DNA from: Spirochaetales bacterium
Lineage (GTDB): Bacteria > Spirochaetota > Spirochaetia > Treponematales > Treponemataceae
NCBI GenBank assembly: GCA_029098225.1
Contig: JAQXNX010000021.1
Coordinates: forward strand, 1 to 64,000
Length of the DNA stretch: 64,000 nt
Direction: 5' to 3'
Positions within the stretch are counted from its first letter, which is position 1. Every line of letters begins with the position of its first letter. Both the position numbers and the translations under genes were made by a program. Under the pieces are notes generated by a model. That model had not been told where the DNA came from. It did no database searches and saw only the letters and a list, made by a program, of their open reading frames with translations. This document shows positions 5,029 through 33,608 of this stretch, one piece after another.

Positions 5029-7242
5029 TTATAATCCAAAAAATCCCATACCTTTTTTCAGATTTTCATCTATCGGAATATTCTTCAATTGTTCTTCAGC
5101 CTGCTTTTTAATTTCATTTTCAGCCTGAGCTTTTAATTGATCTGTTAATTCTTTCATAAGTTTTTCCAGCTCTTTCTGTATTTTCTTTACAGCTGCATCT
5201 GAATCTGTAATCAGGCCTTTTATATCTGTAAACTGTTCAATTTTTTCGGTGGCAAGTCCAGTTTTATCCGAAAGAAGTTTTGTGACTCTTTCCTGAGCTT
5301 CATCTGCAATAGAAGAAATCGCCTTATTAAAAGCTGTCGTAAACATAGTCTGAAACAATTCTGCAGCATTTGTATCTATTGTAAGAACAAGCCCGTCTGT
5401 TTGAGAATATGTATAGCCTAATTGAATCTTCATCGTTTTTACAGAATTTATAGCGTCACTGTATATATCATAAACAATTTTAGGTTCAAAAGCCGGAGTA
5501 AGAATCTGAACTTCAGATAAGTTTAAAGTTCCAGTGCCTTTTACGCTTCCATTTTTGTCTGCATCAAAATTACATTGAATTGCAGAATTTGAATTAAGCC
5601 CGTATGAATCGAATGTAACATTAAATGGAATATTGTTTCCATCATAAATTGCATCAATAAATGGCGCTGTTGTCTGTGTTCGCGCGTCTATAATTGCATT
5701 TAATTTATTCTGTGTTCCAAGAACTTCAAGGTTAGCTGAAAGTTCAGACTGTTTGTTTCTTTTGTCTGCATCACTTGAAAATTCCTTTGCAGAAAAATTC
5801 CAGTTGCTTCCTGAACCATATGCATTTTCCAGAAGGAATTTTGGAACATTGTCATTTTTGTAGTAAATAGTTCGTCCAGGGGCTCTCTGTGCAACTTTCT
5901 TTTCTTTTTTCTTTTTTTCTGCTTTAGCTTTTGAGTCAGAAGCGTTGTTTGCTTTAATTTCCATAGCCTTATCAAGAACCTGACGTGCATAAGGCGAATA
6001 TTGGTCTGCCATTCCATAAACAAAGGCTGTAATTAAATCATTAAATACAGATTTCAAACCTTTGTCTTTTAGAACTGTAAATTTTCCAATCTGTTCATCA
6101 ATCAGTTTCTTATCTGCCTGAATAGCATTAGAAATATCTTTAGACAAGGCGGCTATTGTATTTGCGTCTACCTGAACTTTTTCTACTGTAGATTTTGTTT
6201 GTTCTGCAATAGCATTTCCGGTATTAATTCCATTTGTAACAAGATCAATCAGTTCTTTTATTTTTATTGGATCATTCAAATTTTGATAATCAATTGAAGT
6301 TGCTTTTTCATAAATTGCCTGAACATCTTTAACAGATTTCTCAATTTTTTCCGGTTCATTCTTCCATTTTTCAATCAGTTCTTCTGCTGTTTTTTGTGCC
6401 TTCTCTGCAACTTGTGGAGACTTGAGATTTGCCTGCATGCCTTCAATTATATTCTGTGGATTATAGTCGGCAAACATTCCGTCAAGTGTGTTCTGTGTTT
6501 TTTTAAGAAGATCGTCTCTGGCAATCTGCAGCTTTGGATTTGGCTGTTTTGATTCTTTTTGATCTTTTTCTTTTGGTTTCTTTTCTTTTTTTATAAGTTT
6601 TCCAGATTTAGTTCTTTCTGTATTAACAAGGATTTCTGCAACAGTAATATTTTGAATATCAAATTTTCCTTTTAAAAGTTCAGTTAAATTAAAATCAAGC
6701 GTTATTTCCCCTATCTGGAATAAATTTTTCATTTCTTCATCGGGATTAGCCTGCTGAAGATTTTTGATTTTTAATTTTGAATTTAAGAATTCTACATGAA
6801 GATAATCTATGTCTGTTTTTGCCTGAAAAATTCCCTGCATTGCAGAAGTTATTCCTTTTTTTACAATGATATCCTTAAAAGTAACAACTACAATAAATAG
6901 GGCTGCAAGAAAACCTGCTGTAATGGCAAAAGGTATAAATTTGAATCCTGCTTTCCTTTTTTTAATATCTTTTGAAATTTTCTTTAAACGAATGAGCTGC
7001 TTTTTTTCAATTGTTCCGGTTTTATCTATAGAAAGAAATCCCGGCTTTACAGAATCTTCCTTGAATAAACTTTTAATTAAATCTTTATCAGCAGGAATAT
7101 AAATTTTTTTAAGAATTTTTGATTCTAGTTTTTTTGGAGTATATTTTTTCTTAAATAATCCTGGAATTTTTTTTGCTTTTACAAGTTTAATCTTTTTCTG
7201 TTTTTTCTTTTCTGTTATATTTTTATTTTCGTTATTATCCAT
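5029..7242 (-). CDS. TIGR03545-family membrane-anchored protein
   Basis: 737 residues. A very basic cytoplasmic N-terminus (1-100) is followed by one membrane segment (about 101-122, FIPFAITAGFLAALFIVVV) and a long extracytoplasmic part. That part contains an AsmA-like stretch (LHVEFLNSKLKIKNLQQANP, ITLDFNLTELLKGKFDIQNI), a long coiled-coil/helical region (about 230-430) and a C-terminal beta-rich part. This matches the uncharacterised family TIGR03545, usually found next to TIGR03546 in bacteria with outer membranes; here that partner is directly upstream. A role in the envelope is inferred. It converges with the HD gene with a 14-bp gap. Confidence 0.75.
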   Translation of the reverse strand: MDNNENKNITEKKKQKKIKLVKAKKIPGLFKKKYTPKKLESKILKKIYIPADKDLIKSLFKEDSVKPGFLSIDKTGTIEKKQLIRLKKISKDIKKRKAGFKFIPFAITAGFLAALFIVVVTFKDIIVKKGITSAMQGIFQAKTDIDYLHVEFLNSKLKIKNLQQANPDEEMKNLFQIGEITLDFNLTELLKGKFDIQNITVAEILVNTERTKSGKLIKKEKKPKEKDQKESKQPNPKLQIARDDLLKKTQNTLDGMFADYNPQNIIEGMQANLKSPQVAEKAQKTAEELIEKWKNEPEKIEKSVKDVQAIYEKATSIDYQNLNDPIKIKELIDLVTNGINTGNAIAEQTKSTVEKVQVDANTIAALSKDISNAIQADKKLIDEQIGKFTVLKDKGLKSVFNDLITAFVYGMADQYSPYARQVLDKAMEIKANNASDSKAKAEKKKKEKKVAQRAPGRTIYYKNDNVPKFLLENAYGSGSNWNFSAKEFSSDADKRNKQSELSANLEVLGTQNKLNAIIDARTQTTAPFIDAIYDGNNIPFNVTFDSYGLNSNSAIQCNFDADKNGSVKGTGTLNLSEVQILTPAFEPKIVYDIYSDAINSVKTMKIQLGYTYSQTDGLVLTIDTNAAELFQTMFTTAFNKAISSIADEAQERVTKLLSDKTGLATEKIEQFTDIKGLITDSDAAVKKIQKELEKLMKELTDQLKAQAENEIKKQAEEQLKNIPIDENLKKGMGFFGL

Positions 7243-17548: not shown

Positions 17549-19486
17549 ATGATAAAATTATCTGATCTTAAAAAAAATAAAAATACAATAAAAATAATAA
17601 TTCCGGGATGTATTATTATTCTTCTATTTTTGCTGTGTATTTTCAGATGTTCCTGCAAAACAGGTTCTTCAAAAAATCTCACAGAAATTTCTGAAGATAA
17701 AAATTCATCAGATTCTGCAGAAAAAAAATCTTCAAGTGCAGATAAAAAATCATCCGGCGCAGATAATTCCAGCAAAGATAAAAATTCTTCCGGCGCAGAA
17801 AATTCCAGCGCAGAAAAAAATTCTGACGTGGTTGAAGAATTATCAGACAGAGAAAATTTTCCTGACAGCGAAGAACTTTTTACTGAAGGGAAAAAATCTT
17901 CTGTTGAAGAAAATCTTTTAGAAAGAGAAGAGGTTTCCGGTGCGGAAAAAAAATCATCTGATAAAAAATCGTCTGATGAGGATAAAAATTCTTCTAAAGA
18001 TAAAAAATCCTCTAAAGATAATAATTCTACTATAGAAAATAGTGATAAAACTAAAAAATCTAAATCTGATAAAAACTCTTCAGATATTAAAAATGAATCA
18101 GAGGACAAATCAGAAAATATAAGTGCAGAAGAACATAAGGAAGATTCTGAAAATCAGAAAAAACTTAATGAACTTTATTCTCTTATGGAAGCATACGAAA
18201 ATCTGGAATCTGCTGAAGAAAAAGATAAAAATCTTGAACGTTCTCTTGAACTTGCAAAATCAATTCTTGAAAAAGACCCTGAAAATGATGCTGCTCATTA
18301 TATTCTGGCTCAGGAAGCTTTAAATAAAAAAGATTACGAAACTGCTAAAAATGAACTTGAATTTGCAATTGCGAAAAACAGAACAAATTATCTGTATTTT
18401 TACGATCTTGGAAAAATTTCTTATATTACAAAAGATTTTAATAAAGCTGCAGATTTTTTTCTTACGGCCTGTGGTTTAAACGAGTTATTTGCCCAGAGCC
18501 GCTATAATCTTGGTTTATCCTACAATAAGCTTTCAAAATTTAATGAAGCCCGTACTTCATTTGAAAAAGCTGTAGAAATAAATCCGTTTTATAAAAAAGC
18601 ATATCTGGAACTTGCGAGAGTTAATGAAAAATTAGGAAATTATGACGCAGGTGCTGCTGCTTATAAAAAAGTAATAGAGCTGGAAAGCGATAATGTAAAC
18701 GCATTAGTTGAGCTTGCTTCCTTGTGTCACGAAAGTGGAAATTTAGAAGAATCAGAAATTTATTTTCGACAGGCTTTGTCTAAAATGGACAAATCCGAAA
18801 TAAGGACTCTTACAATGTATAATCTTTCTGCAGTTCTATTGGAACAGAACAGACTTGGCGATGCAGAAAATTATGCGCTTCAGTCTTATGAAGAAAAAGA
18901 TACATTGAATAATAATGCTTCAAAAGCAAACATTGTTTACAATTATGGTTTTGTCTGTGAGAAAAATGGAAAACTTGAAAAAGCAAAACAGCTTTATTCA
19001 GTTGCAATTATGCTTAATGATTCTCATTACAAGGCAAAGGCTAATCTTGCAGGCTTGTATATGCAGGAAGAAAATTGTAATTACGAAGTTGTTATTCCGC
19101 TGTTAAAACAGTCTTATGCGCAAAATCCAAAAAGTTTTGAAGTAAATTACAACCTTGGAAATGCTTATATTGCAACAGAAAAATATGAATCTGCTTTGGA
19201 ATATTTAAATAATGCGCTGTTACTTTCTCCAGAAAACAAAGACTGTAAAATGGCAATGGCACTTGCAAATACAAAGCTTGGAAATTTTGAAGAAAGTAAA
19301 AATATTTATGAAGCCATTATCTTACAAAATACTGATTATCTTGATGCATATATAGAATATTCTAAAATGCTTATGCAGGCAAAAAATAATAAAGACGCGT
19401 TAAAGAATCTTTTGATTGTTAAGCAGAAAAATCCTGAATATCGAAAAACTGAAATTGATAGTTTAATTGCTGTACTGCAGTATTAG
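17549..19486 (+). CDS. membrane-anchored TPR protein with a Ser/Lys/Asp-rich linker
   Basis: 645 residues. A membrane helix (about 17-35, IIIPGCIIILLFLLCIF), then about 150 residues of low-complexity Ser-Lys-Asp-Glu repeats (units such as DKNSSGAENSSAEKNS), then 10 or more TPR units to the end. Probably anchored in the inner membrane with the TPRs in the periplasm. The linker is coded largely by AAA, TCT and GAT, so it is prone to slippage. Function unknown; it forms a two-gene unit with the preceding TPR protein. Confidence 0.75.
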   Translation: MIKLSDLKKNKNTIKIIIPGCIIILLFLLCIFRCSCKTGSSKNLTEISEDKNSSDSAEKKSSSADKKSSGADNSSKDKNSSGAENSSAEKNSDVVEELSDRENFPDSEELFTEGKKSSVEENLLEREEVSGAEKKSSDKKSSDEDKNSSKDKKSSKDNNSTIENSDKTKKSKSDKNSSDIKNESEDKSENISAEEHKEDSENQKKLNELYSLMEAYENLESAEEKDKNLERSLELAKSILEKDPENDAAHYILAQEALNKKDYETAKNELEFAIAKNRTNYLYFYDLGKISYITKDFNKAADFFLTACGLNELFAQSRYNLGLSYNKLSKFNEARTSFEKAVEINPFYKKAYLELARVNEKLGNYDAGAAAYKKVIELESDNVNALVELASLCHESGNLEESEIYFRQALSKMDKSEIRTLTMYNLSAVLLEQNRLGDAENYALQSYEEKDTLNNNASKANIVYNYGFVCEKNGKLEKAKQLYSVAIMLNDSHYKAKANLAGLYMQEENCNYEVVIPLLKQSYAQNPKSFEVNYNLGNAYIATEKYESALEYLNNALLLSPENKDCKMAMALANTKLGNFEESKNIYEAIILQNTDYLDAYIEYSKMLMQAKNNKDALKNLLIVKQKNPEYRKTEIDSLIAVLQY

Positions 19487-22990: not shown

Positions 22991-24526
22991 ATGATGAAAG
23001 GGATAATTATTTTTATAGAATCAGATTCAATTTATGCATCTCAAAAAGCTTTTGATGGAAAATCTGCTGTAGATTTGTCTTATGAATGGGCAAAAAAACT
23101 GGAAATGGATATTTGTACAATTTCTGAAAAACTTTCAGTTTTATCAGCTTTAGAAGAAATGTTTGATATTTGTGAAAAAAACGCTGCAAATTACGCTGTT
23201 ATTTCTTTTAACGATGTTCCATTTACAAATTTGAGTGTTACAAAGAAATTAATAGAAAATCATATTGAATATAAGGCTGAATATACTTTTTCTGATGGTT
23301 ATCCTTATGGTTTTACTCCGGAAATTATTGATAAAGGAACATTAAAGATTCTTATCGGCATGCTTAAAAATCAAGGAGAAAACAAAGAAAATAATTCTCC
23401 GCTTGCAAGAAATTTCTTATATGAGTTAATCAAAAAAGATATAAATTCTTTTGAAGTAGAGACTGTTCTTTCTGAGTCAGATTGGAGACTGTTTAGATTC
23501 AGTTTTTGCACAGAAAAAAAAGAAAATTTTATAGCCTGCAAAGAATTATATGAAAAAATAATTTCAAAATCAGAAAATGAGCTTACAGCAGACAAAATAG
23601 TAGAAAAAGCTTCGATGTTACCTTCCATTTTGAAGACAGTTCCTGGTTTTTATAATCTTCAGATCTGTTCATATGAAGAAAAATCAATTTATTCTCCATA
23701 TTATAATGAATATAAGAATAAATATTCAGAAAATCCTTCAAAAGAAAAATGTTCTTTTATGAAATTTGAAGCAATAAAAAAATTAATAAAAGAAATTTCG
23801 GAATTAAGCGAAAATGCCGTTGTTAGTCTGAGTGCTTTCGGCGAAGCTTTTTGTCATCCGCAGATAATAGAAATTATTGAAGAAATTATAAAATATAAAG
23901 GGCTATGCGTTTTTATAGAAACAAATGGACTGTTAATAAATCAGGAAATTGCAGAAAAACTTGCTGAACTTTATAAAAAATATCCTTCACAGAAAAATTT
24001 CTTTGAAAAAATCATGATTGCTGTAAAACTCGACAGCTTTTCAAAGGAAACTTATAACATAATTCATCCGGAAAGCTGTGAAACTGATTTTGAAACCGCG
24101 GTTACTGCAATTAATCTTTTAAAAAATGCTTTGCCAGGTTGTGTTTATCCTCAATTTGTAAGAATGCAGCAAAATGAAGAAGAACTTGAAAAATTCTTCC
24201 GTTACTGGAATGAAAATAACAGCGGAAAATTGATTATCCAGAAATATGACGACTATGCGGGTCTGCTTCCTCAGTATAAAGTTGCCGACTTGTCTCCTCT
24301 AGAAAGAAATGTCTGCTGGCATATCAGACGAGATATGACTGTTTTAATTAACGGCGATGTTCCTGTGTGTCACAGCTGTATTTTTTCTGATTGTGTAGGA
24401 AATGTTTTTGAAAATTCTCTGGATTCTGTCTGGAAAAAGCTGGATGATTTTGTCGTTCAGCATATAAACGGAAATTATTGTCAAAAGTGCAGGAATTGCG
24501 ATGAATACTATACCTTTAACTTTTAA
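22991..24526 (+). CDS. spiro-SPASM family protein
   Basis: About 511 residues from ATG 22991; an in-frame TTG at 22976 is possible but has no better ribosome-binding site. The N-terminal third resembles a nucleotidyltransferase-like fold. The middle resembles a radical-SAM barrel, but the place expected for CxxxCxxC reads LQICSYEEKSIYSP with only one Cys. The C-terminal SPASM-type domain keeps a Cys cluster (CWHIRRDM, VCHSCIFSDCVGN, YCQKCRNCDEYY) able to bind a 4Fe-4S centre. This matches the spirochete-restricted spiro-SPASM family. SAM chemistry is doubtful. It opens a tightly packed run ending before flaA. Confidence 0.78.
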   Translation: MMKGIIIFIESDSIYASQKAFDGKSAVDLSYEWAKKLEMDICTISEKLSVLSALEEMFDICEKNAANYAVISFNDVPFTNLSVTKKLIENHIEYKAEYTFSDGYPYGFTPEIIDKGTLKILIGMLKNQGENKENNSPLARNFLYELIKKDINSFEVETVLSESDWRLFRFSFCTEKKENFIACKELYEKIISKSENELTADKIVEKASMLPSILKTVPGFYNLQICSYEEKSIYSPYYNEYKNKYSENPSKEKCSFMKFEAIKKLIKEISELSENAVVSLSAFGEAFCHPQIIEIIEEIIKYKGLCVFIETNGLLINQEIAEKLAELYKKYPSQKNFFEKIMIAVKLDSFSKETYNIIHPESCETDFETAVTAINLLKNALPGCVYPQFVRMQQNEEELEKFFRYWNENNSGKLIIQKYDDYAGLLPQYKVADLSPLERNVCWHIRRDMTVLINGDVPVCHSCIFSDCVGNVFENSLDSVWKKLDDFVVQHINGNYCQKCRNCDEYYTFNF

Positions 24527-25466
24527 TGAACATCAGATAAAAATGAATATTCTCGGTGGGCTTGTAAATAACGATAGTTCCACACTGGATGTTTCGGTAA
24601 TTCTCTTAAATTCTATGTCGGATCTTCTTAAACCTCAGATTTTTGACAGTCTTATTCAATGTAATTTTCGTTCAATAGTTTCTATAGAGCATAATAGAGA
24701 AAATGCAAATATTGAGGATTTAGCAAAAAAATATCCGCTGATTAAATTTTTAATTCCTCTGGAAGAATCTTCTGAAGGGCAGCTTATAAATTTAGCCATG
24801 AGTGAAGTAGATTCTACTTATGTTCTGGTTTTAAGGGATACAATTCAGTTTTCTAAAAATCTTTTACCTTCGAATCTTGCTGAACGATTAATAAAATCAA
24901 ATGCTTATTGTATTGTTCCACGCCTGTTAGATTCAGGCAAAAATCCTGCATATGGAATTTTTACGCCCGGAAATGATGGGAAAAAATTTGCGATTAATGA
25001 ATCTTCAACTGTAACTGATGGAATGAAGACAATTTATCCTCCAGATTTTATTGCTTTATATAACCGCGAAAAATTTATTTCTCTTGGCGGTTATGACTGG
25101 ACTATAAAATCTCCTTACTGGCAGAATCTTGATCTTGCAATCCGTTCATGGCTTTGGGGAGAAGAAACTTTATTTTCTACAACGCTTCAGTTTACTTATC
25201 TCTCAGATTTTTCTGTACCAGACAAAACTGTGAATCTTGATTACATCCGGTATTATTTAAAAAACGAACTTCCTAAACTTAAAATGGAAACTGGAATTAT
25301 AAAAAAATCTTCGTTTTTTGTATTTTTGAATCATTCTTCCTGTGGAATTATGGAAGCAAAACGTCAGTTTAACGAGGCAAGAAAGTGGGTTCAGAAAAAT
25401 AAATATCGTTTTAAAAAGGATTTAACTCTTCTTTTATCTGAGTGGGGGGTAACTTATGAAAAGTAA
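24501..25466 (+). CDS. glycosyltransferase-like protein (GT-A fold suspected)
   Basis: 321 residues. It overlaps the spiro-SPASM gene by 26 nt; this start is preferred because AGGA lies seven bases upstream, whereas ATG 24543 has none. The order of elements resembles family 2 glycosyltransferases: VSVILLNSMSDLL, then an IKFLIPLEESSEGQLINLAM segment, STYVLVLRDT in the DxD position, and a late FISLGGYDWTIKSPYWQNLDLAIRSW stretch. A clear DxD is not visible. It overlaps the next gene by 11 nt. Acceptor and sugar unknown; context suggests a surface glycan. Confidence 0.6.
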   Translation: MNTIPLTFNEHQIKMNILGGLVNNDSSTLDVSVILLNSMSDLLKPQIFDSLIQCNFRSIVSIEHNRENANIEDLAKKYPLIKFLIPLEESSEGQLINLAMSEVDSTYVLVLRDTIQFSKNLLPSNLAERLIKSNAYCIVPRLLDSGKNPAYGIFTPGNDGKKFAINESSTVTDGMKTIYPPDFIALYNREKFISLGGYDWTIKSPYWQNLDLAIRSWLWGEETLFSTTLQFTYLSDFSVPDKTVNLDYIRYYLKNELPKLKMETGIIKKSSFFVFLNHSSCGIMEAKRQFNEARKWVQKNKYRFKKDLTLLLSEWGVTYEK

Positions 25467-27930
25467 AAGAGTTGTAATTGTTCAATGTCGTCTATCTTCC
25501 ACAAGACTTCCTGAAAAAGCCTTATTAAAGCTTGGCGAAAAATCTGTGCTTGCGTGGACGCTAAGAGCCATGCATAAAGTTCCTGCAGAACATTATTTTG
25601 TGGCAACCGATATGGATTCTTTTGAAAAACTTGCTCCGGTTTGTCACGAAAATGGCTTTGAATGTTATGCCGGAAGTCTGGATAATGTTTTAAATCGTTT
25701 TACTTCTCTTTTGCAGACTTTGGATTCAAAAACAGTTATACGGGCAACAGCAGATAATCCTTTTTTGTTTTATGAAGCTGCAATAGAAAGTGTAGAAGAA
25801 TTTGAAAAAATTAATAAAACTCAAAAATGTGATTATTTTACTTTTAAAGGCCTGCCACATGGAAGCGGAATAGAAGTTTTTTCTGCTCAATCGCTTATAC
25901 AGGCTGCCAAAGAAACCTCTGATCCGTATGATCTGGAGCATGTAGGCCCCGCACTTTATAATCACCAGGAAAAATATAAGTGCATATTTGAGGATGCTCC
26001 CAGACGTTATAAAGCAAAAATTTGCAATTGCAGAACAACAATAGATACATATTCAGATTATTTGCGCGCAATTTCAATCGTAAAATATCTTGGCTTGAAT
26101 AATGACGAACCTTATACCTGTCAGCAGATACTCGAAGCAGCAGATTCTTCGTGTGTAAAGCATCCTGTAATACTTGTTCCTTCTGTAATAAAAGGAAGGG
26201 GAACAGGTCATCTTCGCCGCTGCCTTTCTATTGCAAGAGAAAATAATTATTTTATATATATCCCACAGGATGCAAGTCTTGAAGGAACTGTAAAACTTGT
26301 TTCTGATGCTATAAGTAACGGAGTTGATGAAACAAATGTTATAGATAAACTTCCAGACGAAACTCTTTCTCCTGTAATTATTACCGATACCTTTGAGCTT
26401 ACAAAAAATCAGATTGAAAGTTTTTCTAACTGTAATTCTTTAATTTCTATAGATGAAGGTTCAGATTATTCAGATTACTGCGATTATCTTTTAGATATTA
26501 TTCCTTCTATCAAGAAAAGAATTGTAAACAAAATTGAACCTGATTTTATTACAAAGCCTTTGAATGTCCGTGAAAATCAAAACGGAAAAAATAATTATGA
26601 AAAAATACTCGTTTGTCTTGGCGGAGAAGATCCTGCAAAACTGACTATTCCAGCTGTAAAAGCTGTTTCAAGCTGTTACCCCGAAGCAATGATTACCGCT
26701 GTTTATAATAATTCAGATAAATCCTATGTTTCTTATTCGGGTGGAGAAAAAATAGAATTCGTAGAAGAAATTGAAAATCTTAGAGAAAAGGTCTTTGAAT
26801 ATGATCTTGTCCTTACTCATTACGGTCTTACAGCCTTTGAAGCAATGTATGCCGGCTGTTCAGTAATTCTATTACCAACTTCTAAACTTCATGTAGAACT
26901 GGCAAAAAAATATTCATTTCCTTTTATAGAAAAATCAGTTAATGAAGATTCATTAAAAAAAGCACTTGATTTTGAGCAGAAAGAATTTGATAAAAAATCA
27001 TTCTTTAATGAAAATAAAGAGAATCCTGTTATTCTTGAAGAATTTCTTAAAACGCTTACAAAAGGTGAAAAGATATTATGCCCGGTTTGCGGGAAAAAAC
27101 AGAATTTTCCAGACGAAGTTATATCGCGTAATGAGACAAGAACTTACAGACGCTGTCAGAATTGTGGAATAGCTTATATGTCTTTTTCAATTGATGGTGG
27201 AAGAGATTATCATAAGGCTTATTTCTTTGAAGAATATAAAAATCAGTATGGAAAAACATATAAAGAAGATTTTGAATCTATAAAGGCTCAGGGAAAAAGA
27301 CGTCTTTCTGTTATAAAGAATCTTAAAGGCGATTTTTCTGATAAAACTCTTCTTGATATTGGTTGTGCTTATGGACCATTTTTAAGTGCAGCGAACGATT
27401 CTGGACTTTCCTGCTTTGGAACAGATATTTCTTCTGATGCAGTAGATTATGTTCAGAATGAATTAAAAATTCCTGCTGCCTGTTCAACATTTCCTGATAT
27501 AAACACTATGGAAGAATTTGGGCTTGAACAGTTTGATTTTGTTTCCATGTGGTATGTAATTGAACATTTTAAAAATCTGGAAGAAGTTCTTAATAAAGTT
27601 TATTCGCTTGTTAAATTAGATGGAATTTTCGCGTTTTCTACTCCAAGTGGTGAAGGAATTTCTGCAAAATCTGATAAAGATGCATTTTATAAAAACAGCC
27701 CTGCAGATCATTATACAATCTGGGAACCATCACGTGCTGAAGCCATATTAAAAAAGTTTGGTTTCAGAATAGAAAAAATTATTTCTACAGGACATCATCC
27801 GGAACGCTTTCCTTATATTCAAAAATGTGGAGCAAAACCTGGAAGTTTAAAATGGATTATGACAGAAAAAAAGAGCAGATTATTAAAACTCGGTGATACT
27901 ATGGAAATTTACTGCAGGAAGGTTTTATAA
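25456..27930 (+). CDS. SpsF-like cytidylyltransferase / SpsG(PseG)-like / methyltransferase triple fusion
   Basis: 824 residues with three enzymes in a row. Residues 1-215 are an SpsF/NeuA-type cytidylyltransferase (VVIVQCRLSSTRLPEKALLKL, ATADNPFL). Residues about 235-530 resemble SpsG/PseG (GRGTGHLRRCLSIA, ISIDEGSDY, LVCLGGEDPAKL, LTHYGLTAFEAMYAG). A zinc ribbon (about 540-570, CPVCGKK...CQNCG) leads to a class I SAM methyltransferase (LLDIGCAYGPFL near 633). Together they could activate, trim and methylate a nonulosonate-like sugar. It starts within the previous gene (11-nt overlap) and its stop abuts the next ATG. Confidence 0.8.
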   Translation: MKSKRVVIVQCRLSSTRLPEKALLKLGEKSVLAWTLRAMHKVPAEHYFVATDMDSFEKLAPVCHENGFECYAGSLDNVLNRFTSLLQTLDSKTVIRATADNPFLFYEAAIESVEEFEKINKTQKCDYFTFKGLPHGSGIEVFSAQSLIQAAKETSDPYDLEHVGPALYNHQEKYKCIFEDAPRRYKAKICNCRTTIDTYSDYLRAISIVKYLGLNNDEPYTCQQILEAADSSCVKHPVILVPSVIKGRGTGHLRRCLSIARENNYFIYIPQDASLEGTVKLVSDAISNGVDETNVIDKLPDETLSPVIITDTFELTKNQIESFSNCNSLISIDEGSDYSDYCDYLLDIIPSIKKRIVNKIEPDFITKPLNVRENQNGKNNYEKILVCLGGEDPAKLTIPAVKAVSSCYPEAMITAVYNNSDKSYVSYSGGEKIEFVEEIENLREKVFEYDLVLTHYGLTAFEAMYAGCSVILLPTSKLHVELAKKYSFPFIEKSVNEDSLKKALDFEQKEFDKKSFFNENKENPVILEEFLKTLTKGEKILCPVCGKKQNFPDEVISRNETRTYRRCQNCGIAYMSFSIDGGRDYHKAYFFEEYKNQYGKTYKEDFESIKAQGKRRLSVIKNLKGDFSDKTLLDIGCAYGPFLSAANDSGLSCFGTDISSDAVDYVQNELKIPAACSTFPDINTMEEFGLEQFDFVSMWYVIEHFKNLEEVLNKVYSLVKLDGIFAFSTPSGEGISAKSDKDAFYKNSPADHYTIWEPSRAEAILKKFGFRIEKIISTGHHPERFPYIQKCGAKPGSLKWIMTEKKSRLLKLGDTMEIYCRKVL

Positions 27931-29601
27931 ATGAATTGTCTTATTTTGGGTGCAGGGCTCATGCAAAAGCCTGCAATTTTGAGTGCAAAGGAAGCGGGAT
28001 TTAAAACTTGTGTTGTAGATGCAGATAAAAATGCAGTTGCAATTCCTTATGCAGATGAATTCTGCCAGATAGATTTAAAAGATAAAGATGGAATTCTTAA
28101 ATATGCTCAAAAGCTTTCTAAAAGCGAAAATGGAGGGCTTGCTGCTGTATTTACCGCTGGAACAGATTTTTCTGCAAGTGTAAGTTATGTCTGTGAACAA
28201 CTTAGGCTTCCGGCTCACTCATATAATGTTGCATTGAATGCAAGCATAAAAACACAAATGCGCCAGTGTTTTAAAGACGCAGAAGTTCCGTCTCCAGAAT
28301 TTATTAATGCTTCAATAGATGATAAGACAGAAGATGTATTAAAAAAAGTTCTTTCTGTAATGAATTATCCGTTTGTAATTAAACCTGTAGATAATATGGG
28401 AGCCAGAGGCTGCAGAATGGTTCGTTCAGAAAATGAATTTGAAGCTTCTTTAAAAGCGGCAGTTTCCTGTTCACGAACAAAAAATGCAATTATAGAAGAA
28501 TATATGGAAGGACCTGAATATTCTATAGATGCAATTGTGTATAACGGAACTTTCACAATTACAGGTTTTGCAATTCGTCACATTAAGTATCCGCCATATT
28601 TTATTGAAGTAGGGCATACAATGCCGGCTGTCCTGGATAAGAAAATTCATGATGAACTTATTTCTGTTTTTGCACTTGGAGCAAAAGCTCTTGGGCTTAC
28701 ATGCGGAGTAGCAAAAGCAGATATTAAATATACAGAAAAAGGTCCGATGATTGGTGAAATTGCCGGGCGACTTTCCGGTGGATATATGTCGGGCTGGACT
28801 TATCCATATTCTTCGGATTTAAATCTTACAAAACAGGCTCTTTTAGTTGCTGCAGGAAAAGAACCCGATGAGCTTCTTAAAAAAAGAATTCCTGTAGATT
28901 ATTGTCCTTCGCAAATATGTAAGAATCTGGAAAAGCCTTATGAACTTTATGAGGTTCCTTCAATTAGAACCTGTGCAGAACGGGCATGGATGAGTATTCC
29001 CGGAGTTATAAAGAATATAGAAGATATTGAAGATTTTACAGATAAAGCTATTACTGATGTTCTCCCCAGAGCTGGCGCTGGAATAGGAGCTTCAGTAACC
29101 TTTCCAAGAAATAATGTAGAAAAATGTGGAAATATTATTTCTGTAAGTAATAAAAGAGAAATTGCAATAGAAGCAGGAGAAAATGCTGTTTCGAATATCT
29201 TTATAACTCTTGAGCCATGTAATCCAGTAACAGATGAATTTTTAAATGGAAATTCAAAATCAGATGAAGAAGCTTTTCCTCCATATGCTTTTTTCAAGCT
29301 TTCGTCTGAGCAGGAAAAAGAACTTGCTGAAGAATTATCTTTGACTGGTGGATTTATAGGTAAAAATCAAAAAACATATGATTTTATTCCAGAACTTTTG
29401 AAAAAATCCGATTATAAAATGATAAAGGACTGGTCATATAATACCATAGGAACAACGCTGAAAAAATTTGATATTCTGCGCAAAAATCATCCGGAATTAA
29501 ATAGTCTTGAATTTTTTAAGGCTGTATTACGAGGCGGGCTTCAAGGTGCTGTATATTATAGTGACAGTGTAGAAATTAAGGTGAATGCAAATGAAAAATA
29601 A
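27931..29601 (+). CDS. ATP-grasp ligase of unknown substrate
   Basis: 556 residues. The N-terminal fold MNCLILGAGLMQKPAILSAK is that of the biotin-carboxylase/PurK/PylC group. ATP-grasp motifs include YPFVIKPVDNMGARGCRMV, IIEEYMEGPEYSIDAIVY and ADIKYTEKGPMIGEIAGRLSGG. Such enzymes join a carboxylate to an amine or other nucleophile using ATP. The C-terminal ~220 residues are a less recognisable extension. Placed between the sugar-modification fusion (0-bp gap) and the amidase (11-nt overlap), it may attach an amino acid or acyl group to a surface polymer; that is inference. Confidence 0.75.
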   Translation: MNCLILGAGLMQKPAILSAKEAGFKTCVVDADKNAVAIPYADEFCQIDLKDKDGILKYAQKLSKSENGGLAAVFTAGTDFSASVSYVCEQLRLPAHSYNVALNASIKTQMRQCFKDAEVPSPEFINASIDDKTEDVLKKVLSVMNYPFVIKPVDNMGARGCRMVRSENEFEASLKAAVSCSRTKNAIIEEYMEGPEYSIDAIVYNGTFTITGFAIRHIKYPPYFIEVGHTMPAVLDKKIHDELISVFALGAKALGLTCGVAKADIKYTEKGPMIGEIAGRLSGGYMSGWTYPYSSDLNLTKQALLVAAGKEPDELLKKRIPVDYCPSQICKNLEKPYELYEVPSIRTCAERAWMSIPGVIKNIEDIEDFTDKAITDVLPRAGAGIGASVTFPRNNVEKCGNIISVSNKREIAIEAGENAVSNIFITLEPCNPVTDEFLNGNSKSDEEAFPPYAFFKLSSEQEKELAEELSLTGGFIGKNQKTYDFIPELLKKSDYKMIKDWSYNTIGTTLKKFDILRKNHPELNSLEFFKAVLRGGLQGAVYYSDSVEIKVNANEK

Positions 29602-30625
29602 TAAACTGAAAATATTTTTTTACTTACTTTTTATTCCTTTTTTTGCAGTTCATGCTGCTAATGATATTTCTTTAATGGAAAAATCAAAAACAAACGGAAT
29701 GACAATTTATTATGATTCACTTTCTCAAAGCGGAATAATAGAAAAAAACGGACATCAGCTTACATTTCGTATGGGAGAACAGATAGTTCTTTTAGATAGT
29801 CTTCAGATGATGATTACAGACGCTCCTGAAATTAAAAATAATCAGATTTTTGTTTCAAATAAATTTCTTTCAGATTCAGAAGAATTTTTCAGCAGAAAAT
29901 CTGAGCTTCCTTTTAAAGTCGGAGCTATTTTAATTGATGCCGGACATGGAGGAAAAGATCCGGGTGCTTCAAAGACATATAAAATTAAAGGAAAAGATGT
30001 AACAATTCGCGAAAAAGATATTAACCTTACTGTTGCAAAAATGCTTTATGAAAGGCTTCATGCTGCTTATCCTTCAAAGCAAATTATTCTTACCCGCGAT
30101 AAAGATGTATATTTAACCTTAAGTGAACGAACTGATATAGCAAATAATGTAAAGGTTGGCGAAAACGAAGCTGTACTGTTTGTTTCAATTCATGTAAATT
30201 CTTCATTAAATAAAACTTCTTCTGGATATGAAGTATGGTACCTTTCTCCGGGCTACAGGCGTACAGTTTTAGACAAATCCTCTGTTGAAGTAGATAATTC
30301 TGTCTATTCAATTTTGAATGCAATGCTTGAAGAAGAATATACAACAGAAAGTATAATGATTGCTCAGTTTATTATGGACGGTCTGCAGGCTCAGATTGGA
30401 AAAGAATCTCAGGCACGCGGAATAAAGGCAGAAGAGTGGTTTGTTGTAAAAAATTCAAATATGCCGAGCGTTCTTGTAGAACTTGGATTCGTTTCAAACG
30501 AAAAAGAAGCATTACTTTTAAATGATGAAAAATACTTGAAAAAGGCAACCCTGGGAATATATAATGGAATTGCAGCGTTCATAACTCATTTTGAACATTC
30601 GCAAGGATTTACTACAATAAAATGA
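29591..30625 (+). CDS. N-acetylmuramoyl-L-alanine amidase (Amidase_3, AmiC-like)
   Basis: 344 residues from ATG 29591, which has AAGGTG at usable distance; an ATG at 29585 is too close to it. A signal peptide (about 1-20, ending HAAN) is followed by an N-terminal domain of the AMIN or copper-amine-oxidase-like type. The zinc amidase domain then shows ILIDAGHGGKDPGA, REKDINLTVAK, FVSIHVNSS and LVELGFVSN, so the His/Glu ligands are present. It cleaves the bond between muramic acid and the stem peptide in the periplasm. It overlaps its neighbours on both sides, so it belongs to this operon. Confidence 0.9.
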   Translation: MKNNKLKIFFYLLFIPFFAVHAANDISLMEKSKTNGMTIYYDSLSQSGIIEKNGHQLTFRMGEQIVLLDSLQMMITDAPEIKNNQIFVSNKFLSDSEEFFSRKSELPFKVGAILIDAGHGGKDPGASKTYKIKGKDVTIREKDINLTVAKMLYERLHAAYPSKQIILTRDKDVYLTLSERTDIANNVKVGENEAVLFVSIHVNSSLNKTSSGYEVWYLSPGYRRTVLDKSSVEVDNSVYSILNAMLEEEYTTESIMIAQFIMDGLQAQIGKESQARGIKAEEWFVVKNSNMPSVLVELGFVSNEKEALLLNDEKYLKKATLGIYNGIAAFITHFEHSQGFTTIK

Positions 30626-31098
30626 AATTAAGAAATTTAAGTAAAGAGATTATATTATCAGGTGTATTGCTTGCATTTGTTTTATTCAGTTTTTTATTTT
30701 CCCTTATTTGCTACGAAAGTAATAGAAGCGGACTTCGCAGAACTTTTATTTTTCCTTCTGCAGATGAAGGAAAATATGTAATTGAATACAGAAATCTTTC
30801 AAAAAATGCAGTTCAGGGCGATATTGAATATTTTATTGATGAACTTCTTTTAGGTTCTTCTCTGGAAAGAACAAAAATGCTTTTTACTGCAGGAACAGCT
30901 GTAGAATCCTGTTTTGAGAGAAAAGGTGTACTGTATTTGAACCTTTCAGATAAACTTTTAGAAATAGGTAATGGAGTTGTAGATATAAAAGATGGCGTTA
31001 AATTACTGGAAGATAATGTAAAAAGAAATTTTCCCCGAATTGATTCAATTGAATTATTTATTGGCGGGAAATATGCTTTTGAATCTCAAAATCTTTAA
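30622..31098 (+). CDS. GerMN-domain membrane-anchored protein
   Basis: 158 residues. An N-terminal membrane helix (about 12-32, IILSGVLLAFVLFSFLFSLI) is followed by a GerMN domain (about 45-155), with ALF-like IDELLLGSS, FERKGVLYLNLSDKLL and FIGGKYAFE. GerMN domains occur in envelope proteins linked to spore germination or peptidoglycan metabolism, often beside amidases as here. It overlaps the amidase by 4 nt in ATGA. Last gene before flaA. Confidence 0.78.
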   Translation: MKLRNLSKEIILSGVLLAFVLFSFLFSLICYESNRSGLRRTFIFPSADEGKYVIEYRNLSKNAVQGDIEYFIDELLLGSSLERTKMLFTAGTAVESCFERKGVLYLNLSDKLLEIGNGVVDIKDGVKLLEDNVKRNFPRIDSIELFIGGKYAFESQNL

Positions 31099-31115
31099 AA
31101 GTGTTAATGTTATTC

Positions 31116-31144
31116 TTGACAAAAACGACTTGTTATTAGATAAT
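31116..31144 (+). promoter_or_regulatory. flaA promoter
   Basis: TTGACA (31116-31121), a 17-bp spacer and GATAAT (31139-31144), within the 93-bp gap before flaA. It looks like a sigma-70 promoter rather than a flagellar sigma-28 promoter. The leader is about 40 nt with an AGGAG-type ribosome-binding site. Confidence 0.85.
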
Positions 31145-31191
31145 TATTTTATACAAGGCTACATCGAATTAGTATAAAAAGGAGCTTCAAG

Positions 31192-32274
31192 ATGAAGAAG
31201 ACTTTTGGATTATTTGCAGCTGCTATGCTGCTTGTTGGTGGCGTTGCATTCGCAGAGGAAGCAGTGCTCATCGATTTCACTCTTTTGGATGCTGACTGTG
31301 TTGAAGACGGTAATGGAAATCTCACTCAGAACAGTCATACAGTTATGGATTATTCTGTGAGTGCAGGAGCAACTTTCACCGAAGATCAGAAAGATCTTAT
31401 GAAAACTTCTTTAGCACTTCCAGAGTGGGAAGTTAAACTTAATTCTTCTGCAAAGACAGTAGCAAGTTTAGCAGACTCTAAGGTAGTTGCTGCTCCTGTA
31501 AAGGCAGAGGCTGATCAGCCATTTGCTGGTAGCAACATTATGGGTGTTCGTATTGTATTCCCTACATGGAATTCAAACGCAAATGCAAGAATTGAACCTC
31601 CATTTGATATTCCTGCTTACGAACCACTCGCATCTGCAGATGAAAATGGTAACCGTCAGGAACCAACTGATGAAGAAAAAGCAAGTGGAAAAACACTTTT
31701 CGAAGACGGATATGGTGTTGTAAAAAATGTTGGAACAGTAAAATCAATTGCTGTAACAACAATGGGTATGAACTATCCTCATGGATTGTATGTTCTTTTG
31801 TCAGATAACGATGGCGTTGAACACCGCTATTTCATGGGTTATCTTGGATTCGACGGATGGAAAGAACTCCGCTGGAACAACCCACAGTATATTAGTGAAA
31901 TCAGAAACCGTGAAATTCGTGTATATCCAATCTATCCACGTGGACTTCCTTTTGTTAAGTTCCAGGGATTCCAGATTACACGCGATGCAGCTCACATTGG
32001 TGGAGATTTCATCGGATACTTCAAAGACGTAAAGATTATTTACGACAAGGCTCTTCTTACAAGCGATCGTGATATTGCAGATGAAGATCTTTGGGGAATC
32101 ATTGGCAAGAAAGAAGATGCTCGCCAGGCTGCTGAAATGCAGAAATTCGGAAACAAGCAGGTTAATCGCTATCTTGAAAAAGCAAAGCTTGCTGCTGAAG
32201 ACGAATTTACATCAAGCCTTAACACAGAAGGTTCTGGTGCAGCACAGAAAAATGAAGGACAGGCTGCTAACTAA
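31192..32274 (+). CDS. flaA: flagellar filament outer layer (sheath) protein FlaA
   Basis: 360 residues. Signal peptide 1-21 (LFAAAMLLVGGVAFAEE), then the FlaA fold typical of spirochete periplasmic flagella: VLIDFTLLDADC near the start of the mature protein, GVRIVFPTWNSNANARIEPP, MNYPHGLYVLLSDNDG and FQGFQITRDAAHIGGDFIGYF (as consecutive elements). Exported to the periplasm, it coats the FlaB core. Own promoter and terminator make it a single-gene unit. Codon use is biased, as in a highly expressed gene. Confidence 0.95.
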   Translation: MKKTFGLFAAAMLLVGGVAFAEEAVLIDFTLLDADCVEDGNGNLTQNSHTVMDYSVSAGATFTEDQKDLMKTSLALPEWEVKLNSSAKTVASLADSKVVAAPVKAEADQPFAGSNIMGVRIVFPTWNSNANARIEPPFDIPAYEPLASADENGNRQEPTDEEKASGKTLFEDGYGVVKNVGTVKSIAVTTMGMNYPHGLYVLLSDNDGVEHRYFMGYLGFDGWKELRWNNPQYISEIRNREIRVYPIYPRGLPFVKFQGFQITRDAAHIGGDFIGYFKDVKIIYDKALLTSDRDIADEDLWGIIGKKEDARQAAEMQKFGNKQVNRYLEKAKLAAEDEFTSSLNTEGSGAAQKNEGQAAN

Positions 32275-32357: not shown

Positions 32358-33608
32358 ATGAATACCGCAAATCTTATATCAAAAAAAACTCTTAGAGAAA
32401 AGTACGAAGCTTATAATCCTTACTTCAATTATATTATGTCTGAGATTGTAAAAATTTTACAATCTAAAGTTTCTTTAATGGCTCAACCAACTTATAAAAG
32501 CCGTGTAAAAAGTTTTGACAGTTATTATAAGAAAATTTTACGCTTAAAGCCCGAAACTGTTCAGGAAGAAAAAAAATTAATTTGTCTTACAGATATGATG
32601 GGTATAAGAATGATTTGTGCCTTTCTTGAAGACATAAATATTGCTGTTGAACAATTAAAGAAAATTTTTGATATTAAAGAAGTTGAAATAAAAGGCTCGA
32701 ATAATAATTTTAAGGAATTTGGTTATGAATCTGTTCATGTGCTGATTAAAATTCCAAATGAAATAAAATTAAAAGTTGAAAAAAAATTCAAGGGACTCGA
32801 TAATCTTGATGATGATCTTGTATGCGAAATACAGATAAGAACAATTCTTCAAGATGCCTGGGCTGAAGTTGAACACGAATTAATTTACAAAACTGAATTT
32901 AATCCTTTTGATATTCCGTTAAGACGAAAGCTTGCATCTATAAATGCTTCATTAACTTTGGCCGATATTACATTTCAGGAAATTCGAGACTATCAGAATA
33001 AGCTTCAAAAGGAATTGGATGAAAGGCGCCGTTCATTTTATAACATGGCTGACGGTTTACTTAATGAAAAACCTGCTGAAGAAGGAAGCGAAGATATTTC
33101 AAGAGTGTCTCCATATGTTCAGGGTACAATTGATGAACTTTTACTGCGTGCAATTGAAGCACATAATCAGGGACATCTTTCTGAAGCCGTTGATATTTAT
33201 ACAAGAATTATTGAAGCAGTTCCAGACAGTGAAAAAAATATTATTTCTGTAATTCGAAAGCACCGCGGAATGGCATTTTTTGCAATGAATAATCTTGAGG
33301 CTGCAATAGAAGATTTTCAGAAAAGTATTGAAGCAGATCCAAAAGCTTTCCGTTCTTATTATTACAAAGGAATTGTATATTCAATTCAGAAAAAGTATCA
33401 GGAAGCTGTAGACTGTTATTCTAAATCGCTTGAATTAAATGAATTTCAGGCTCATACAAACTTCCGCCGGGCAATGGCTTATTATGAACTTGGCGAATAT
33501 GAAAAATCTATGAATGATCTTGACGTTGCGCTAAAACTTGGAATGAATGCTGCTGAATGTAAACCTTTGCAGGATAAACTTGTAAAGAAGTTCCATATGA
33601 ATATGTAG
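32358..33608 (+). CDS. small alarmone synthetase fused to TPRs (RelA/SpoT synthetase domain only)
   Basis: 416 residues. The (p)ppGpp synthetase domain (about 20-200) shows SRVKS (49-52), LTDMMGIRMI (D79, R84), the G-loop GYESVH (122-127), EIQIRT (157-162) and WAEVEHELIYK (168-178). There is no HD hydrolase, TGS or ACT domain. Residues about 245-405 are four or five TPR units (IYTRIIEAVPDSEKN, AFFAMNNLEAAIEDFQKSIE). It should transfer pyrophosphate from ATP to GDP/GTP; the TPRs probably tie this to a protein partner. The hydrolase partner is likely the gene at 4388. GAGG precedes the ATG. Confidence 0.88.
   Translation: MNTANLISKKTLREKYEAYNPYFNYIMSEIVKILQSKVSLMAQPTYKSRVKSFDSYYKKILRLKPETVQEEKKLICLTDMMGIRMICAFLEDINIAVEQLKKIFDIKEVEIKGSNNNFKEFGYESVHVLIKIPNEIKLKVEKKFKGLDNLDDDLVCEIQIRTILQDAWAEVEHELIYKTEFNPFDIPLRRKLASINASLTLADITFQEIRDYQNKLQKELDERRRSFYNMADGLLNEKPAEEGSEDISRVSPYVQGTIDELLLRAIEAHNQGHLSEAVDIYTRIIEAVPDSEKNIISVIRKHRGMAFFAMNNLEAAIEDFQKSIEADPKAFRSYYYKGIVYSIQKKYQEAVDCYSKSLELNEFQAHTNFRRAMAYYELGEYEKSMNDLDVALKLGMNAAECKPLQDKLVKKFHMNM

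Follow-up and report, generated by a model that had tools for sequence, protein, structure and literature searches.

What is made by six overlapping genes that stand just upstream of the gene for a flagellar sheath protein? The genes lie in a 64,000-nucleotide stretch of a Treponemataceae genome (GCA_029098225.1, contig JAQXNX010000021.1), which we will call the window. They encode a spiro-SPASM protein (SPASM), a glycosyltransferase-like protein (GT), a triple fusion of sugar enzymes, an ATP-grasp ligase, an amidase, and a GerMN-like protein, and they are followed by flaA (Table 1). A sequence-only reading of this locus had proposed that so tight a run has one joint product, possibly a methylated, amino-acylated nonulosonate-type sugar for the flagellar filament or the envelope. 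We predict, with fairly good confidence, that the product is an activated nonulosonate of the pseudaminic type, both N-acylated and O-methylated, which would be attached to serine or threonine residues of the core flagellins (FlaB). Most likely, this is the gene set by which almost all flagellated spirochaetes, except for Borrelia, produce and activate an unusual acid sugar for their internal flagella.

The sugar enzymes

As the earlier reading had it, the third gene encodes three sugar enzymes in one chain: a CTP_transf_3 domain that resembles synthetases of cytidine monophosphate (CMP)-linked sugars, a PseG-like hydrolase, and a methyltransferase (MT) that uses S-adenosylmethionine (SAM). 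The PseG-like part had no match in Pfam and was detected only with NCBIfam's PseG model, below that model's cut-off. The motif GxGHxxR is present in all 30 of the PseG-like open reading frames (ORFs). Across the 40 loci described below, the cytidylyltransferase (CTase), PseG-like, and MT domains are found separately, as CTase-PseG or PseG-MT fusions, or as the CTase-PseG-MT triple fusion. These fusions, along with a fusion of the ATP-grasp ligase to a dehydrogenase (see below), link the steps of the proposed pathway.

The second gene was described as glycosyltransferase-like, and the predicted structure agrees, although the 321-amino-acid (aa) protein has no match in Pfam. The model (predicted local distance difference test, or pLDDT, of 88.7) has a GT-A fold. 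Its closest solved folds are polypeptide GalNAc-transferases (for GalNAc-T3, Z = 19.5 with a root-mean-square deviation of 3.8 over 266 residues), and the next families have Z of 15.9 and below. At the corresponding position, another locus (L063 of genome G064, 5814-6788) encodes a true GT2-like protein, perhaps an indication of where the GT-like family came from.

The window's genome also contains four matches each to the NeuB-family synthase and to the Maf-type transferase. NeuB is not linked to the cluster; it is an orphan gene, as no partner in the NeuB neighborhoods was conserved across distant genomes. The same genome has two additional NeuB genes with stronger matches, about 22 kb apart (G000:C11:181178-203911), which probably belong to a separate surface-polysaccharide locus. 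Four Maf-like matches are also present in a 1.14-Mb genome (G061), as in most treponemes, which suggests that Maf proteins have several distinct roles.

The gene set is lost along with flagella

We examined the distribution of these families in two draws of genomes. All 149 genomes of the phylum-wide draw contain flagellin, and nearly all of them contain spiro-SPASM (144), NeuB (143), Maf (145), and the ATP-grasp ligase (143). Only one family, f7, lacks all four. It is represented in this draw by four Borrelia-like genomes, each 1.0-1.5 Mb in size and divided among several replicons. The class-level draw comprises 198 genomes, of which 137 are flagellin-positive and outside of f7, 41 are flagellin-negative, and 20 are from f7. 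Spiro-SPASM (E < 1e-20) was found in 129/137 of the first group and in none of the other two (Fisher test, 3e-24). Similarly, the ATP-grasp ligase was found in 126/137, 0/41, and 0/20 (4e-23). The pattern for Maf is alike, except for weak matches in G177 and G243 and for one incomplete genome, G299.

Two families, f53 and f55, each contain both flagellin-positive and flagellin-negative genomes, and the presence of spiro-SPASM and the ATP-grasp ligase agrees perfectly with flagellin in both. Therefore, several independent losses contribute to the pattern. Because of this distribution, we conclude that the gene set is tied to flagella and not to the envelope. Gene content and co-loss with flagella thus both give good support to the idea that the flagellar filament receives a nonulosonate-type sugar.

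The run joins two or three modules

We compared about 19 kb around the spiro-SPASM gene in 40 genomes (18 from the same class and 22 from outside it), and we mapped the window's genes onto these loci with iterated profiles. Conservation of gene order across spirochetes had been set beforehand as a check, and it exceeds chance: SPASM-GT-CTase-PseG-MT-ATP-grasp-amidase-GerMN-flaA, which includes all seven genes, appears in this order in 12/18 same-class loci. Another of these loci lacks the amidase, five have only SPASM-GT-CTase-PseG-MT, and SPASM-GT-CTase is retained in all 18. Outside the class, the cytidylyltransferase adjoins SPASM in 12 of 22 loci (in one case with an intervening gene), and L060 has the order SPASM-CTase-PseG/MT-amidase-GerMN-flaA.

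The idea of one joint product for all six genes was not supported. In a genome the size of T. pallidum's (G061; 1,139,633 bp) and one the size of T. denticola's (G316; 2,843,201 bp), amidase-GerMN-flaA is encoded apart from SPASM-GT-fusion, and the ATP-grasp gene is in a third place, away from both. Because of these splits, we regard the run not as an obligate operon but as a joining of modules: SPASM-GT-fusion and (ATP-grasp)-amidase-GerMN-flaA, or three if the ATP-grasp gene is counted separately. We also considered whether the whole run and flaA form a single operon. We do not favor this, given the split modules in relatives and a 93-nucleotide gap between the GerMN gene and flaA, which contains a promoter-like site. 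The flaA transcript of T. denticola also covers the four genes that precede it, TDE1713-1716 (PMC9481697). Judging by position, two of these match the amidase and GerMN.

A probable carboxylate-amine ligase and a possible hydroxy acid

By profile, the ATP-grasp protein matches the L-amino acid ligase BL00235 (3vot; E = 3e-31, residues 48-398) and also BacD; the top profile score is for 4dim, an unassigned protein annotated as PurD. The LAL_C2 domain (PF18603) scores 23.9 bits in the window's protein, which is under the cut-off of 29.4 bits, whereas relatives with a fused domain score 40-73 bits. The domain fused in these relatives is an alpha-hydroxy-acid dehydrogenase that depends on flavin mononucleotide (FMN_dh). 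We found this fusion in five relatives that we scanned from outside the class, and frames of 720-780 aa suggest that most of the other outside-class relatives have it as well. Apart from the FMN_dh fusion, the ATP-grasp neighborhoods outside the cluster had no conserved partner. In G061, a HAD phosphatase and then a free FMN_dh gene come directly after the SPASM-GT-fusion run (L041, 9523-11307), and their products probably carry out steps that the pathway otherwise lacks. Because the carboxylate-amine ligase is tied to a hydroxy-acid enzyme, an amide linkage between a hydroxy acid and an amino sugar is suggested.

The flagellin glycan of T. denticola fits such a product. It is described as a 450.2-Da modification of FlaB that is required for filament assembly and motility (PMC9481697, citing Kurniyati et al. 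2017). A mono-acetyl nonulosonate (274.116) and a methylated acyl group (176.068) sum to 450.185. The ligase and the methyltransferase together would account for the 176.1-Da acyl group. The glycan is reportedly a mono-acetyl pseudaminic-type nonulosonate with a 2-methoxy-4,5,6-trihydroxyhexanoyl group at N7, and no gene set published so far, to our knowledge, accounts for this unusual acyl group. As a side observation, the 1.14-Mb genome has a single NeuB gene, and an ORF at a distance of about 6 kb from it (L085, 15009-15641) resembles KDPG aldolase by eye, and its keto-deoxy acid product could supply a 3-deoxyhexonate acyl group.

Of the proposed "methylated, amino-acylated" sugar, the methylation and the acylation are plausible, but the FMN_dh fusion and the mass of the glycan point to a hydroxy acid, rather than an amino acid, as the likelier acyl group. 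A parallel is known from Shewanella oneidensis, whose flagellin carries a 274-Da mono-acetyl nonulosonate and a further methylatable group; in deletion experiments, modification was complete only with both a SAM methyltransferase and a carboxylate-amine ligase of the ATP-grasp_4 family (PMC3765264).

As for the acceptor, FlaB1 of Leptospira has probable Ser/Thr glycans at the interface of the core and the sheath (PMC13144727). FlaA is unlikely to be the acceptor because flagellins, but not sheath proteins, were reported to be glycosylated (Wyss 1998, as cited in PMC13144727).

The spiro-SPASM protein

We found no mention of spiro-SPASM by name in the literature that we searched. The window's protein scores 483.9 bits against TIGR04321 (cut-off 250), and its predicted structure (pLDDT 92.6) has two parts. 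The first (residues 1-222) resembles a cytidylyltransferase from Leptospira (6oew, Z = 20.5). The second (residues 210-511) resembles radical-SAM/SPASM proteins (SuiB, Z = 22.4; BtrN, 21.3; SkfB, 20.1; anSME, 19.6). By sequence profile, BtrN is the best solved relative of the family (E = 5e-20). With a profile of the true cytidylyltransferase domain, 87 of 116 SPASM N-termini are recovered; the probability from hhalign is 97.9%. However, the signature RxxSxRxPxK for binding cytidine triphosphate (CTP) is present in 0/120 SPASM N-termini, as compared to 26/30 cytidylyltransferase ORFs. Because the fold and the profile match but the signature is missing, the N-terminal domain is a pseudo-cytidylyltransferase. 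It might plausibly pair with the live cytidylyltransferase that is encoded next door.

The protein was said to have the SPASM cysteines and to lack CxxxCxxC. This is correct for the window's protein, which has ICSYEEKSIYSPY at the site, yet 54/120 members of the family retain the motif. For instance, the nearest relative in our set (L032, 49% identity) has CTGKCIYCPY where the window's copy reads CSYEEKSIYSPY. The four cysteines of the auxiliary cluster (ORF residues 447, 465, 505, and 508) are complete in 119/120 members. With only these four, the protein would hold a single auxiliary cluster, as twitch-type proteins do. We built a quick tree without the columns for CxxxCxxC and the auxiliary cysteines. 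On this tree, the presence of CxxxCxxC changes 19 times by parsimony, and at least 9 changes are forced by well-supported branches. Since the ancestors of the family were radical-SAM proteins, the motif is likelier to have been lost repeatedly than gained repeatedly. Also, the genes without the motif are not decaying: the ratio of nonsynonymous to synonymous substitution rates (dN/dS) is about 0.09-0.18 between motif-less pairs, including in the radical-SAM part.

We lean, if only slightly, towards the view that spiro-SPASM is part of the flagellin-glycan machinery across the phylum and that it is a dead CMP-sugar synthetase fused to a BtrN-like radical-SAM dehydrogenase. Its radical cluster would have been lost repeatedly while the auxiliary iron-sulfur cluster was kept under purifying selection. 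In many spirochaetes it would now work without radical chemistry, either as an iron-sulfur scaffold for the CMP-sugar or as a partner of the live synthetase.

A proposed route and its alternatives

In the route that we propose, the PseG-like domain would strip uridine diphosphate from a diamino-sugar precursor, the unlinked NeuB would condense the precursor to a nonulosonate, and the CTP_transf_3 domain would convert this to the CMP-nonulosonate. At a free amine of the sugar, the ATP-grasp ligase would attach a hydroxy acid, itself handled by the FMN-dependent dehydrogenase, and the product would then be methylated by the methyltransferase. For the hydrolysis, the CMP activation, and the acylation, we draw on what is known of these families. 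The unlinked Maf proteins, possibly with the GT-A-fold protein, would transfer the sugar to flagellin in the cytoplasm. Our guess is that spiro-SPASM acts on or holds the CMP-sugar beside the live cytidylyltransferase. Its radical step would be ancestral and now dispensable in many lineages, including the window's. The amidase, GerMN, and FlaA would form a neighboring module for the housing and sheath of the filament.

Several observations weigh against this route. The PseG equivalog (TIGR03590) scores just 53 bits, as compared to a cut-off of 153.55 bits, so the sugar may be of either the Pse or the Leg type. The Fisher tests ignore phylogeny, and in several genomes the ATP-grasp gene is not linked to the SPASM module. 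The metal site of the GT-like protein (DxD/DxH) appears degenerate, with LRDT in the window's copy and LWSD or LWND elsewhere. Finally, an O-methyl-hexose residue has an identical mass of 176.07 Da. The 176-Da part could then be a second sugar that is added by the adjacent GT-A-fold protein, with the ATP-grasp ligase adding amino acids, forming peptide bonds, or having some other role. We consider this unlikely, given the apparently degenerate DxD and given that, in the non-Spirochaetia loci that we fetched, the GT is not linked to SPASM (there is only the distant GT2 of L063), while the ATP-grasp ligase is nearly universal. In addition, the structure reported for the T. denticola glycan has an acyl group at N7 and not a second sugar. 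It is even harder to credit that the product is a glycan of the envelope or of lipoproteins, such as an outer-sheath or peptidoglycan-linked polymer, and that the nearness of flaA is incidental. The amidase and GerMN are in the same run, and surface polymers of Leptospira also bear nonulosonates (PMC3438082), but SPASM and the ATP-grasp ligase are absent from every flagellin-negative genome (including those in f53 and f55) and present in over 90% of the flagellin-positive, non-Borrelia genomes, and amidase-GerMN-flaA is a separable module. This disfavors the envelope target of the earlier reading.

For spiro-SPASM itself, it is conceivable but doubtful that radical chemistry persists, with other residues holding the first cluster, and that the protein performs an essential, BtrN-like dehydrogenation of the sugar. 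No solved structure matches it better in sequence than BtrN, whose fold is also close, a GEP-like motif is often retained, and the radical-SAM core is also under purifying selection. However, the 66/120 members without CxxxCxxC have replacements that do not resemble one another (for example, YSPY, YKPN, and NRQN), so there is no conserved alternative set of ligands.

Boundaries of the run

The six genes were reported to overlap or abut by 0 to 26 nucleotides, with flaA following, and this is confirmed, with all of the genes on the + strand and the domains supported by Pfam and NCBIfam (Table 1). The successive overlaps are 26, 11, 0, 17, and 4 nucleotides. Upstream of the SPASM gene, xseA is divergent. 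The match of the GerMN-like protein to Germane (21.8 bits) is just under the cut-off of 23 bits.

Table 1. The gene run, the promoter candidate, and the parts of the triple fusion
Feature	Position in window (or in protein)	Strand	Basis
Spiro-SPASM protein (TIGR04321)	22991..24526 (start 22976 or ATG 22991)	+	Pfam/NCBIfam, fold model
GT-A-fold glycosyltransferase-like protein	24501..25466	+	Predicted fold; metal-binding DxD apparently degenerate
Triple fusion, CTP_transf_3 + PseG-like + methyltransferase	25456..27930	+	Pfam/NCBIfam, motifs
824-aa fusion, CMP-sugar synthetase-like part (CTP_transf_3)	~aa 1-235		PF02348, E = 8e-27; RLSSTRLPEK present
824-aa fusion, PseG-like hydrolase	~aa 236-530		GTGHLRR
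824-aa fusion, zinc ribbon + SAM methyltransferase	~aa 531-824		Methyltransf_23
ATP-grasp carboxylate-amine ligase-like protein, L-amino-acid-ligase branch	27931..29601	+	Pfam (ATP-grasp_4), profile
N-acetylmuramoyl-L-alanine amidase (Amidase_3), probably flaA module	29585..30625	+	Pfam
GerMN-like (Germane) membrane-anchored protein, flaA module	30622..31098	+	Pfam, sub-threshold
Sigma-70-like promoter candidate, TTGACA-17-GATAAT (11/12), in pre-flaA gap	31116..31144	+	Consensus match only
flaA, periplasmic-flagellum sheath protein	31192..32274	+	PF04620, E = 1.6e-79

After flaA, the window encodes a RelA/SpoT-like domain fused to tetratricopeptide repeats (TPR) (32358-33608), as do most close relatives. 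Another TPR protein (17549-19486) has a long, highly charged, low-complexity stretch near its N-terminus that is rich in Ser, Lys, Asp, and Glu.

Significance and comparison with known systems

The earlier reading offered the system as a candidate undescribed one, but it is not wholly undescribed, since flagellin glycosylation in T. denticola is already published. What is new here is the two-module structure, the phylum-wide distribution that is linked to flagella with a Borrelia-like exception, the link between ATP-grasp and FMN_dh, and the finding that SPASM is a chimera whose radical site has been lost again and again. A compact candidate set that is conserved across the phylum, but missing from Borrelia-like spirochaetes (which keep flagellin) and from those without flagellin, makes the pathway directly testable. 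In T. denticola, filaments do not assemble without the flagellin glycans, and in Leptospira such glycans seem to bridge the core and the sheath. Also, radical-SAM proteins that have lost the radical site many times while keeping the auxiliary cluster are a rare natural series, which would help in asking what such clusters do alone.

The FlaB glycan system of T. denticola is from the same phylum and has the same target. The T. denticola-sized genome carries SPASM-GT-fusion, ATP-grasp, and amidase-GerMN-flaA, but the modules are dispersed instead of forming a single run. The sfmABCDE genes of Shewanella share the methyltransferase, the ATP-grasp_4 ligase, a mono-acetyl nonulosonate with a methylatable group, and candidate Maf proteins encoded elsewhere. 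They differ in having PseI-like, TPP, and reductase genes, with neither SPASM nor the CTase-PseG-MT fusion; SfmE and the spirochaete ligase share a Pfam family. The pseudaminic acid pathway of Campylobacter and Helicobacter (PseB-PseI, with PseF and PseG) has counterparts here in the PseG-like site, the CMP-sugar synthetase, the NeuB-family synthase, and Maf; in contrast, the window has a low-scoring PseG-like domain that is fused with the synthetase and a methyltransferase, and it adds SPASM and ATP-grasp. BL00235 and BacD are alike to our ligase by profile and share LAL_C2 with its fused relatives, whereas the window's ligase is below the LAL_C2 cut-off and its relatives are fused to FMN_dh. 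Finally, BtrN (4m7t), the radical-SAM dehydrogenase of butirosin biosynthesis, has the same fold as spiro-SPASM, and the auxiliary-cluster region aligns too, but spiro-SPASM has, in addition, a cytidylyltransferase-like domain at its N-terminus, and the radical-SAM cluster is often missing from it.

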